A stretch of DNA of 64,000 nt, taken from Streptomyces agglomeratus (lineage in GTDB: Bacteria; Actinomycetota; Actinomycetes; Streptomycetales; Streptomycetaceae). The notes under the pieces were generated by a model. It was not told the DNA's origin and did not search any database. It was given only the letters and a program-made list of their open reading frames with translations. The stretch's first letter is position 1, and each line of letters opens with the position of its first letter. Location of the stretch: NCBI RefSeq assembly GCF_001746415.1, contig NZ_MEHJ01000001.1, positions 930,001-994,000 on the forward strand, in the 5' to 3' direction. This document shows positions 36,436 to 39,683 of this stretch, piece after piece. A program made the translations under genes and the position numbers.

Positions 36436-36996
36436 CTAGCGGTAGTCGACTTCGACGTAGTCGATGTCGTTCAGCTCGACTTGCAGGCCGGGTGCCCGGC
36501 GCCCCCGGTCCTTGAAGTACTCCTCTTGAAGCCCTTCGGCGGCGATGCGCTGCAATTGCTGCTCGGTCGCGCCCGCTGCCTGCGCGTCGAAGAGACGGCT
36601 CGCGTACGCGGGCGGCAGGTGCTGGGTGATCAGCCTCAGCCTGCTGTCGTCCGTAGTGCCCGGCGCCGCTGTGAAACCGAACCGCGCGCGGGTCTCGATC
36701 ACGATGCCTGTGGTACTGGCAGCCTGCTTCTTGGCGCGCTCACGGACCCTGGGCTGCCAGTCCTTGGCCACTTCCGCGACCAGACGGGTGGCGAGGTCCC
36801 TGCGCGGCCGCTTGAATTGGCCTTTGAGGTAACGCTCCACTGTCCGCTGCGAGATCCCGAGCCGCTCGGCCACCGCCTTGGTGGAGCCTTTCTCGTGCTT
36901 CACCAGGAACCGCATCTGCGCCTGCGCCGACTTGGGCAGGGGCCGGGTGAACGTATTCGCTTCGGCCTTGTCGAGGCTGTCGCCCAGGATGCCCAT
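36436..36996 (-). CDS. tpg: Telomere terminal protein Tpg
   Basis: This 186-residue protein matches Streptomyces terminal proteins in length and sequence: GDSLDKAEANTFTRPLPKSA, then AQMRFLVKHEKGSTKAVAER, the helix-turn-helix LGISQRTVERYLKGQFKRPR, and ETRARFGFTAAPGTTDD. Tpg is covalently joined to the chromosome 5-prime ends and primes end-patching. From memory, the linked residue in known Tpg is a threonine near position 114; here T114 and T115 lie in APGTTDD. The gene starts 17 bases after tap, on the same strand, as in known tap-tpg operons. Its presence implies a linear replicon. Confidence 0.93.
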   Translation of the reverse strand: MGILGDSLDKAEANTFTRPLPKSAQAQMRFLVKHEKGSTKAVAERLGISQRTVERYLKGQFKRPRRDLATRLVAEVAKDWQPRVRERAKKQAASTTGIVIETRARFGFTAAPGTTDDSRLRLITQHLPPAYASRLFDAQAAGATEQQLQRIAAEGLQEEYFKDRGRRAPGLQVELNDIDYVEVDYR

Positions 36997-37013
36997 CGTT
37001 GACCCCTACTCCC

Positions 37014-39200
37014 CTATTCGCCGTCGGCCGACGCGTCGCTGCCCTTGATGTGCCGCGCAGGGTTGTGGCCCTGGTCGAGCATGTGAACGGCCCACATCAT
37101 CGGCTGGCTTCCCTCGCACTTGACCATCCCCGGCGAGACGCCGAGCCGGAACCCTCCGGGGAGCGGCTTGTCGTCGGGTGTGCGGGGCAGGAAATCCAGC
37201 GGCGAAGGGCCGTCGGACAGGTACACCGCGCAGTCCGAGAGAACCGCGATCGGAAAGAGGCCGACTGTTGCGATCTTGAGCATCTTGCGGTGCATGTTGA
37301 TCCGGGCGGCAGAGATCACGGCGGCGCGGATGTCGGGCCGCCAGGTGGGGCGTTCCAGCGCCGGCCAGCGTTCTCCGGGCCGGTAGCCGAGCCCCTGCGG
37401 CCGCTCGCGGAGCTTGCCGATGCCGCCCTTTACCGTTGACTTGATGGCCGACAGGACCGCGGCCTGTCCGGCGTCGACCTGCTTGTGCTGGTCCATCGCC
37501 TTGAGGAAGTCGGCCTCGTCCATCGAGGATACGACACCCAGCTCCGCCATGGTGATCATGTAAGCGTCGCGCAGCCGGGTGTACCAGGCGTCCAGATACG
37601 CGGCGTGCTCGCGCCGGACGTACGCCTCGGCGGGCCGCACCTGGTGCCCGAGTTCAACGGCGTAGGCAACGGTCGGCGTCGCGTACCAGGCGGGGCCTGA
37701 AGGCCGTACCCCGTGCGGGGTGAACGGGTTCGGGAGGCGGGGGTCGATCTCGATGTGCGACAGGTCGACGAGCCAGCTGCCGGGCAGCTTGGGATCGAAC
37801 TCCGGGTTGTTGATGTGCACAGCGGGGCCGAGGCCGACGTTCAGCCGGTTCGCGGCGGCCGCGAACGCCATGTTGACGTCGATTCCCACCGCGTAGGGCT
37901 TCGTGCACTCCTCGTCGGTGAGCAGCTCGGGATCACGGATCCACTCGTAGGCCTCCTCGTCGAGGACCTCTGCCGGGGTGCGCCGGTGCCCGCGCGGGTA
38001 CAGCGCGGCGACGACGGGGTGTTCGTCCGGGGCTTCCGGCGGCGCGGGGTCCACCGGGGCGGTGAGTGAACCGGGGTTCGGACCGGACGACCACGCGCCG
38101 GTCGTGGCGTCCTTGACCGCGCGGGTGGGCGGACGCAGGGCGGTCATCAGCTCCAGGCCGGACACCGCGCAGGAGCCGCGCGGGGTGATGACCCTCGTGG
38201 CGTACGTGCCCAGAACCTGGGCGAGTTCCGCCGCCGGGAGGTGGGCGGCGTCGCCCCAGGCGCGGGCGTCGAGAGCACCCCAGGGCACGATCGCGAACTG
38301 TACGCACTGGCGCGAGCCGCCCTGCGCCGGGCGGTAGACCCTGGCCCACGGGCCGAAACCGCGCCTGGTCGTCTTCCACTTCGCCCTGGCGATCTGCTTG
38401 TTCACCTTGTGGTCCTCGGGAAGGCGCAGACCCCGCCGGTCCTCCAGGCCCTCCGGGAGGCCGAGGCGCTCGGCTGCCGCGGCGGTGATGACGACCAGGG
38501 GGTCGGCGTCCCTGCCGTTGCGATTCAGCCGGGGCGCTCCCAGGCGCGCCTCGGTGAGGGTCCATTCGACCAAGGCGGGGACGGTGGTGGCCGGGCAGTC
38601 GAGCACAAGACCGCCGACGCAGTACGCCGATCCGTCGCCGTCCAGCACCGCGAGCGGACCATTGGCGAAACGCGGATCGACCGCTGCGGCGGTGGGGGCT
38701 GGTTCCCTTGCCGCCGAGTTCCGGACGGGCGGGCGTCGCGTCGCCGCCGGCGTCTTGCGGAGCGGGGGCGGCGCAGCGGGCGTCGCGACGGACGCTTCCA
38801 CCGACGGCTCGGAGGCGACCGGCGGTTCCGGCGCGGAAGGAGCGACCGGTGCGGGGACGGGAGCGGCCGGTGCGGGAGCGGCGGGTCCGGGGGCGGGAGC
38901 GGCCGTGGTCTGCGGCTCGGCCTCCACGGCCTCGGTTCGCGGTGCGGGGGCGGCTGCCAGTTGGGTGGCGATGCCTTCCAGGAGCTTGGCGTAGGCGGCC
39001 CGAGTGGTGCCCTGCGGTTCGCTGCGGCCGGCTTCCCACCCGGCCACGGTCGTCCGGGTCACGTCGAGCGCGCCGGCGATCTCGGTCTGCGTGAGGCCGT
39101 ACGCGGTGCGCAGCCGGGCGCGCTCGGCGGGTTCGGGCAGGTGAGTGCGGCGCGGCCCGGCCTTCAGGAGGGCGTCGACGGGGTCGGGCTTGCTCGCCAT
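37014..39200 (-). CDS. tap: Telomere-associated protein Tap
   Basis: The 728-residue protein begins with an XRE-type helix-turn-helix (LRTAYGLTQTEIAGALDVTR, then TTVAGWEAGRSEP). An Ala/Pro-rich linker (about 85-170) follows, and then a large conserved body including FANGPLAVLDGDGSAYCVGG, KPYAVGIDVNMAFAAAANRL, LPGSWLVDLSHIEIDPRLPN and IGKLRERPQGLGYRPGERWP. This is the Streptomyces Tap architecture; the usual length is about 740. Tap binds the telomeric 3-prime overhang and recruits Tpg. It lies upstream of tpg, 17 bases apart. The N-terminal helix-turn-helix could also make it a self-regulator. Confidence 0.93.
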   Translation of the reverse strand: MASKPDPVDALLKAGPRRTHLPEPAERARLRTAYGLTQTEIAGALDVTRTTVAGWEAGRSEPQGTTRAAYAKLLEGIATQLAAAPAPRTEAVEAEPQTTAAPAPGPAAPAPAAPVPAPVAPSAPEPPVASEPSVEASVATPAAPPPLRKTPAATRRPPVRNSAAREPAPTAAAVDPRFANGPLAVLDGDGSAYCVGGLVLDCPATTVPALVEWTLTEARLGAPRLNRNGRDADPLVVITAAAAERLGLPEGLEDRRGLRLPEDHKVNKQIARAKWKTTRRGFGPWARVYRPAQGGSRQCVQFAIVPWGALDARAWGDAAHLPAAELAQVLGTYATRVITPRGSCAVSGLELMTALRPPTRAVKDATTGAWSSGPNPGSLTAPVDPAPPEAPDEHPVVAALYPRGHRRTPAEVLDEEAYEWIRDPELLTDEECTKPYAVGIDVNMAFAAAANRLNVGLGPAVHINNPEFDPKLPGSWLVDLSHIEIDPRLPNPFTPHGVRPSGPAWYATPTVAYAVELGHQVRPAEAYVRREHAAYLDAWYTRLRDAYMITMAELGVVSSMDEADFLKAMDQHKQVDAGQAAVLSAIKSTVKGGIGKLRERPQGLGYRPGERWPALERPTWRPDIRAAVISAARINMHRKMLKIATVGLFPIAVLSDCAVYLSDGPSPLDFLPRTPDDKPLPGGFRLGVSPGMVKCEGSQPMMWAVHMLDQGHNPARHIKGSDASADGE

Positions 39201-39221
39201 ACGGTGCTCGCTCCTTCGGTC

Positions 39222-39578
39222 TCAGTCGTTGTCGGTCGCGGATGTGCGCTGCGGGGCGGCGTCGAGGAACTCCCGCAAGTGCCGGCCTGTGAGGATACGG
39301 GCGGGATTGCGGCCCGGGGGCAGCGGAAGCCGGCGCCCCAGAGCCCACTGGAACCGGGCGGCGGGGGCGAGGTCGAAGGCGTACTTGCCGCCCGCGGTGG
39401 CGTCCGGCTCGGACCCGACGATCCGGAAAGCGCCGACGCAGACGCCGCCGTCGACGAAGGCCAGCAGGAAGTCACCGTGCTTCCCGATGGTCTGCGTGGA
39501 GAAGCGCCACCAGCGGGCCGCTCCTTCCGCCACGGTCTGGCCCCGACGAAGCGACTGCCTCACGTCCACCGCGAGCAT
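39222..39578 (-). CDS. Small gene upstream of tap, unknown function
   Basis: From ATG 39578 (GGGGGAG upstream) this frame encodes 118 residues starting MLAVDVRQSLRRGQTVAEGA and containing RWWRFSTQTIGKHGDFLLAF, DGGVCVGAFRIVGSEPDATA and GRNPARILTGRHLREFLDAA. It ends 21 bases before tap on the same strand, so it is probably the first gene of a tap-tpg operon. I do not recognise a family. The short beta-strand-rich middle with a Trp pair might bind nucleic acid. The operon link is the only functional hint. Confidence 0.65.
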   Translation of the reverse strand: MLAVDVRQSLRRGQTVAEGAARWWRFSTQTIGKHGDFLLAFVDGGVCVGAFRIVGSEPDATAGGKYAFDLAPAARFQWALGRRLPLPPGRNPARILTGRHLREFLDAAPQRTSATDND

Positions 39579-39624: not shown

Positions 39625-39648
39625 GATCCGATCCGATCCGATCCGATC
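39625..39648. repeat. GATCC microsatellite before the tap operon
   Basis: Four and a half tandem GATCC units lie 47-70 bases upstream of the ATG at 39578, in the leader or promoter of the tap operon. Such short repeats can change copy number. Confidence 0.7.
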
Positions 39649-39667
39649 GTAGCTCAGACCAACACGT

Positions 39668-39683
39668 TTTATCGGCCGATAAA
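39668..39683. promoter_or_regulatory. Perfect 16-bp palindrome upstream of the tap operon
   Basis: TTTATCGGCCGATAAA is a perfect palindrome in an unusually AT-rich patch, 90 bases before the first gene of the tap-tpg operon. It is a strong candidate operator, possibly for the helix-turn-helix of Tap or Tpg. No regulator binding is known from the sequence. Confidence 0.6.

Follow-up and report, generated by a model that had tools for sequence, protein, structure and literature searches.

What does a third gene do in a telomere operon that, in the parts of PMC4513846 devoted to it, consists of tap and tpg? The question is raised by a stretch of 64,000 nucleotides from Streptomyces agglomeratus (GCF_001746415.1, contig NZ_MEHJ01000001.1, positions 930,001-994,000, forward strand), which we refer to as the window, and in which a small gene, here called q118, precedes tap and tpg. 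The three genes lie about 0.97 Mb from the left end of this contig (C1), which has 8,325,022 bases in a whole genome of 9.13 Mb. A preliminary description of this DNA had recognised a Tpg of 186 residues with an APGTTDD segment, a Tap of 728 residues with an XRE domain, and a third gene of 118 residues starting the apparent operon 21 bases before tap. The open reading frames (ORFs) and the family matches given below bear out all three assignments. The features in question, in window coordinates, are the following:

39668-39683, no strand assigned: perfect 16-bp palindrome TTTATCGGCCGATAAA, operator-like, upstream of q118
39646-39651, minus strand: -10-like hexamer TACGAT, 16 nt after the palindrome, a candidate promoter element by its conservation
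39222-39578, minus strand: q118, 118 residues, first gene of the predicted operon; a stand-alone domain, apparently distant kin of the C-terminal modification-sensing domain of CMoRE/PD-T4-3
37014-39200, minus strand: tap, 728 residues, telomere-associated protein Tap (NF047542); residues 1-85 are the helix-turn-helix (HTH) subtype "GPRR...PQG" that accompanies q118
36436-36996, minus strand: tpg, 186 residues, terminal protein Tpg (NF047541)

By their scores and their adjacency on one strand, tap and tpg form a tap-tpg telomere module: Tap scores 1107 bits against NCBIfam NF047542 (curated cut-off 600) and also has an HTH_3 match, while Tpg, with its APGTTDD segment, scores 304 bits against NF047541 (curated cut-off 90). 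The gaps are 21 nt between q118 and tap (39201-39221) and 17 nt between tap and tpg (36997-37013), and the three genes are predicted to be a tight minus-strand operon that would be transcribed as a unit. The q118 protein matched no Pfam or NCBIfam model at E <= 1. We nonetheless regard q118 as a real gene because it has 40 homologues, a conserved start (M1 to D5 in at least 90% of 41 aligned rows), and a ratio of nonsynonymous to synonymous substitution rates (dN/dS) that lies at 0.09-0.15 in comparisons with four close relatives (L004, L005, L006 and L010; L numbers denote loci and G numbers genomes).

Seen from q118, linkage to tap is complete in the loci examined. Our count covers the 17 strong q118 loci whose DNA context was examined, each place taken once: the window, L004, L005, L006, L010, G138, the plasmid locus L040, G505, G488, G489, G499, G455, three in G458, G439, and G114. 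A tap gene or tap remnant follows q118 directly and on the same strand in 17 of 17, and 13 of these taps are a single open frame. The tap of L010 has one frame change, that of G138 is represented by its first 133 residues on the piece examined, and that of G439 is shortened to a brief start running into the end of tpg. G114 has a partial q118 and a tap spread over several frames; in L085 (G488) the q118 frame continues into tap. In L086, L087, L088, and L091 q118 ends within the start of tap, with a 4-nt overlap (GTGA or ATGA), which argues for one operon; nine further loci have a reliably placed tap start, and there 3-31 nt separate the two genes. L004, L005, L006, and L010 share with the window the genes that flank the module to either side, and only the module matches the window in L040, L084, L085, L086, L087, L088, L092, and L094 (a comparison made without L089-L091). 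From this pattern we take the module to be an old resident in the window's clade that sits in unrelated places elsewhere. On the NBC_00564 linear plasmid (L040, 1-7587), q118-tap-tpg is closely preceded by genes annotated as TniQ family, helicase-associated, AAA family ATPase, integrase, and TnsA-like.

Seen from tap, q118 is rare. Our genome searches scored the best 11 candidates per genome and the profile search 8000 candidates, and may have passed over some q118 genes as a result. Among 5.8 billion database proteins there were 40 homologues at E <= 0.01 (at least 42 with a profile), and 38 of the 40 cover at least 90% of q118 at 65-97% identity. Among 61 relatives three genomes matched, the source genome strongly and two others weakly; among 392 genomes of the genus there were at least eight (full-length in the source genome, G138, and G109, partial in G114, and four weak), and among 394 genomes of the family at least 11, ten of them strong. 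Tap exceeds its curated cut-off in 246 of the 394 family genomes and gives some match in 378. Nine of the ten strong-q118 genomes also have Tap over the cut-off (G138 judged by E-value) and the tenth, G439, has only Tap remnants; q118 is thus present in about 9 of the 246. A Tap match at E <= 1e-20 occurs in 374 plasmid records; a close q118 was found in one, NZ_CP107787, where the order is again q118-tap-tpg. We therefore reject the idea that q118 is a conserved streptomycete telomere protein, as most Tap genomes lack it and the 61 relatives hold only the source gene and two weak matches. The preliminary description had asked whether the gene stands beside tap in other strains and had held that its absence beside nearly all of them would count against it; taken literally, at least ten strong-q118 genomes against 246 with Tap is that outcome, yet the converse linkage, from q118 to tap, has no exception among the 17 loci examined. 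Weak matches of 21-26 bits in G381, G308, G339, G057, and G438 appeared chance-like by reading frames and rescoring and were set aside. The match in G036 (33 bits, 35 residues) resembles a decayed q118, and the Tap-like matches near it are weak (E 0.002 and 0.017). A prophage origin was likewise rejected, with no match in annotated phages and none in viral contigs by peptide pattern; the homologue P0009 has a weak match (E 0.003) to the phage family phrog_21034, of unknown function. The two Pfam matches among 39 members of the q118 family are at chance level.

Which part of Tap does q118 go with? We compared 81 Tap N-termini in a tree of 85 columns (five of these domains are identical, and the rows are not independent) and Tap bodies in a tree of 65 of the 81 rows, 16 q118-less rows having been dropped (LG+G4, quick search). 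The trees omit L007, L018, L037, L118, and L123, where the tap N-terminus is missing, cut, or in another frame, as well as L030-L033, L094/L025, and L097, whose taps are decayed, and loci that duplicate or only partly cover a place already represented. Fourteen of the 81 N-termini come with q118, and together with seven others, all from g27, they form one branch (SH-like approximate likelihood ratio test, SH-aLRT, 100) marked by the GPRR and PQG motifs; the other 60 have no q118 match (L078, with only 137 nt upstream, could not show one). On the body tree the GPRR type needs seven changes and q118 itself six, and making the HTH type one clade is rejected (log-likelihood 921 lower, approximately unbiased test p 0.0002) for a group that was named from the N-terminal tree; L091, for example, falls beside L122, and L040 beside L008, and neither L122 nor L008 has q118. 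Because the HTH type is scattered in this way, we place an exchange point between the Tap HTH and the Tap body, and we regard q118, the palindrome, and one Tap N-terminal HTH subtype as behaving like a cassette. A link between q118 and the Tap body was considered and rejected, as the body tree scatters q118. In comparison with six g27 loci q118 shows the highest identity in the module, 73-81% (HTH 59-62%, body 55-60%, Tpg 44-50%).

The palindrome occurs largely together with q118. The pattern TTTATN6ATAAA is exact upstream of full-length q118 in 13 of 16 loci, and every match to it in all loci examined is at a q118 locus. The 9.13-Mb source genome contains one match to the palindrome within two mismatches, at the putative q118 promoter, and in 13 genomes all five exact copies of the 16-mer stand at putative q118 promoters; the same holds for the closest match in G109 (one mismatch) and in G489 (two mismatches). 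Matches with three mismatches are scattered through the 13 genomes at about the level of a reversed control, and none with up to three mismatches was found in G499, G455, G458, or G036. In 11 of the 13 palindrome loci a TANNNT hexamer stands exactly 16 nt after the palindrome, and in the window a weak -35-like CCGATA lies within the palindrome, 18 nt from TACGAT; this conservation points to a q118 promoter. The GPRR-type locus L111 shares its recognition helix with L087, where the palindrome is present, and has neither q118 nor the palindrome, a hint that the palindrome goes with q118 and not simply with the HTH, although a single deletion could have removed both.

Several smaller observations concern the same upstream region and first-gene slot. 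In the window, tandem GATCC repeats (39625-39649, four exact units and one altered) lie between the -10-like site and q118, and they were not found in the other q118 upstream regions inspected. A search of the 35-41 kb part of the window gave no Rfam match at gathering score. L111 (1096-1452) and L112, two g27 loci whose taps have this HTH subtype, carry a different small protein in the first-gene slot (118 residues in L111), by eye coiled-coil plus winged-helix-like and unrelated to q118. Among the taps without q118 (L008-L131), those of other HTH clades have short repeated words in the roughly 130 nt before the gene that differ between clades (GTACGC at 11 or 22 nt, GGGTTAA at 13, and TTAGATC at 12 nt spacing, for example), and these words suggest that Tap HTH subtypes may bind their own promoters.

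A second line of evidence concerns what kind of protein q118 is. Outside tap operons, the q118 profile clearly reached one named family, that of the Dietzia plasmid protein P0043 (NZ_CP027239), with 40 bits where 1000 shuffles gave at most 6.5, and hhalign aligned the two families at 98.4% probability (E 1e-14). Unlike q118, the Dietzia protein has 165 residues with a C-terminal extension, is encoded on a circular plasmid, and has no tap among the annotated neighbours within the 6 kb inspected. A profile of q118 plus the Dietzia protein found P0055 (24 bits, E 6.5e-5 per genome, in a class-wide search of 246 genomes), which matches residues 155-258 of PDB 9u75 (E 9e-6) and the PADLOC model PD-T4-3 (E 2e-7). 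P0055 and six plasmid proteins, including a full-length 9u75 homologue from Bosea (E 7e-69), make up a family that we call CMoRE-CTD-like, after the C-terminal domain (CTD) of CMoRE, and hhalign relates the Dietzia family to it at 97.2% (E 3e-11). Compared directly, q118 and the CMoRE-CTD-like family score 28.8, a value that none of 200 column shuffles reached (the highest gave 23.8), while an unrelated Tap HTH alignment scored 14.6, and q118 and the CMoRE/PD-T4-3 domain (PDB 9u75, 9u7u) have aligned W, F, and NP positions. Through the intermediate family, q118 thus appears to be distantly homologous to the CMoRE C-terminal domain. That domain binds 5hm-dCTP, and its authors report no homologues of it by sequence or structure; the single contact to 5-hydroxymethylcytosine (5hmC) named in the relevant part of the paper is the main-chain O of Y127 (PMC12923530). 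Y127 is chain position 132 (an offset of 5, from Y17/Y19/Y31) and q118 starts at about position 143 by transitive alignment. Because q118 begins after the segment holding Y127, 5hmC binding by q118 would not be implied by the homology. In further contrast to CMoRE, q118 is a stand-alone protein of 118 residues in a telomere operon, with no fused GIY-YIG nuclease and no PADLOC match. Other CMoRE-CTD-like domains occur at L147 1132-1521, L148 1141-1884, L149 454-1539, and L150 829-1548, and the contexts seen are a lone domain beside a DUF262 gene (Synechocystis plasmid), an annotated HNH endonuclease (Arcobacter), and GIY-YIG proteins (Rhodococcus and Bosea).

We do not regard q118 as a general telomere protein; more probably it regulates the telomere module or serves it as a DNA-binding partner. 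In our reading, to which we assign a probability of about 0.5, it is a small, base-reader-like DNA-binding protein that forms one cassette with the palindrome and its cognate Tap HTH, and that most likely binds the palindrome and sets the level of Tap and Tpg. The cassette has been exchanged between different Tap bodies; q118 would bind DNA, in the first place the palindrome at its own promoter, alone or with the Tap HTH; this binding would set the Tap and Tpg level as a form of autoregulation; and q118 may perhaps respond to the state of DNA ends. The preliminary description had suggested a third end-patching component or a regulator, and the conserved palindrome and the link to the Tap HTH fit the regulator better than a general end-patching role, given that Tap and Tpg alone performed the first primer reaction in vitro (PMC4513846).

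A number of observations weigh against this reading. Three loci (L089, L091, and L092) have q118 without the exact palindrome, G439 has a 16-mer match with two mismatches on another contig, away from q118, and seven GPRR-type Taps have neither q118 nor the palindrome. Moreover, the palindrome and q118 adjoin, so that a single deletion would remove both, and their co-occurrence is no proof of binding by q118. A consensus scan found no sigma-70 promoter, and in L084 and L085 TTGGAA stands where TANNNT is expected. Against L084, L085, and L040, q118 is 72-75% identical, below the HTH (77-86%) and the body (79-81%), with Tpg at 72-79%, and the N-terminal tree carries a warning of few columns and of long branches meeting. 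As for the kinship with CMoRE, the direct comparison of q118 with the CMoRE-CTD-like family reaches a probability of only 40%, the q118 profile found nothing among solved structures, the q118-plus-Dietzia and Dietzia profiles found weak unrelated chains there and no CMoRE chains, and neither q118 nor the Dietzia protein matched PD-T4-3 in PADLOC.

The telomere context of the source genome bears on where q118 might act. The window tap is the sole tap over the cut-off in this genome; a second is broken into pieces in several frames (C1 7744559-7746684, L097), and a small piece of tpg lies at 7.87 Mb of C1. Contig C2 (741 kb) carries two more tpg genes over the cut-off (440196-440795, L098, and 468024-468569, L099), and no tap was found on it; the L099 tpg follows an ORF that by eye resembles a phage or plasmid primase-helicase. 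The outermost 20 kb at the two ends of C1 have no terminal inverted repeat in common, the one match between them covering 137 nt at 71%, and the assembly probably stops short of the ends. In the q118 genome G488 the two chromosome ends agree exactly over the 300 nt compared, which is what a linear chromosome bounded by terminal inverted repeats should show.

The main alternative is that q118 is a third end-patching component of this subtype, one that would join the Tap HTH in binding telomeric DNA, or a base mark on it, and would act at chromosome ends rather than at the promoter. Linkage to tap at 17 of 17 loci, the link to the Tap HTH, and the DNA-reader-like domain all suit such a role, as do the identical ends of G488 and the binding of Tap to telomere palindromes II and III (PMC4513846). 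However, most Tap genomes lack q118 (246 with Tap, at least ten with q118, in 394 genomes), q118 follows the Tap HTH and not the Tap body, and in the source genome the palindrome occurs once, at the promoter, though the assembly may not reach the telomeres. As Tap and Tpg alone performed the first primer reaction in vitro (PMC4513846), q118 would not be needed for basic priming, in the system tested there. We consider this explanation rather unlikely.

Kinship with CMoRE also raises the idea of a modification or self-recognition guard, in which q118 would sense modified or foreign DNA like the CMoRE domain and adjust the module during invasion or conjugation. The relatives with readable architecture are indeed type IV restriction-like (the GIY-YIG, HNH, and DUF262 contexts described above), but q118 has no fused nuclease and matches no PADLOC model, and the one named 5hmC contact precedes the q118-equivalent stretch (PMC12923530), and we think a guard improbable. 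We find it very improbable that q118 rides along neutrally or selfishly, or that it is paired with the Tap HTH as toxin with antitoxin. There are type II toxin-antitoxin operons that have a small gene before an XRE-type HTH gene and a palindromic operator, and q118, tap, and the palindrome have this layout; yet the high identity of 38 of 40 homologues and the purifying selection on q118 speak against a rider, no toxin family in Pfam or NCBIfam matches, and no free-standing intact q118 occurs among the 17 strong loci.

How, then, does this module compare with known telomere loci? Like the archetypal Streptomyces tap-tpg pair (NF047542/NF047541; PMC4513846), it has Tap and Tpg over both cut-offs with tap followed directly by tpg; unlike it, q118 is the first gene and a 16-bp palindrome stands upstream. 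Of the taps with other HTH subtypes, 25 of 52 have instead an exact 7-nt direct repeat, 8-25 nt apart, upstream (a count made without a shuffled control; by HTH clade 5/13, 12/15, 5/15, 3/3, and 0/6), as does one of the seven GPRR-type taps without q118. A Type II tap-tpg set (PMC7205883) also has three ORFs, but as described there the third is a 648-residue HTH protein, an alternative Tap, beside a truncated tap. Among open-licence papers on a third tap-operon gene or the tap promoter, including the pertinent parts of PMC7205883 and PMC8743542, we found no description of q118.

The module thus has a third protein that comes with one Tap HTH subtype in every locus examined and that appears to belong to a DNA-reader family reported to be without relatives. 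The CMoRE domain, described in one defence nuclease, would then stand for a whole family whose members differ in architecture and perhaps in role. It is tempting, if doubtful, to consider that q118 reads DNA ends or base marks together with its cognate Tap HTH, and that some streptomycete telomere modules couple the chemical or structural state of DNA to end-patching; if true, a modification-reader domain of the defence type would have been recruited into chromosome-end maintenance. In any case, q118 offers a small and concrete target for learning how bacterial telomere proteins are regulated or aimed.

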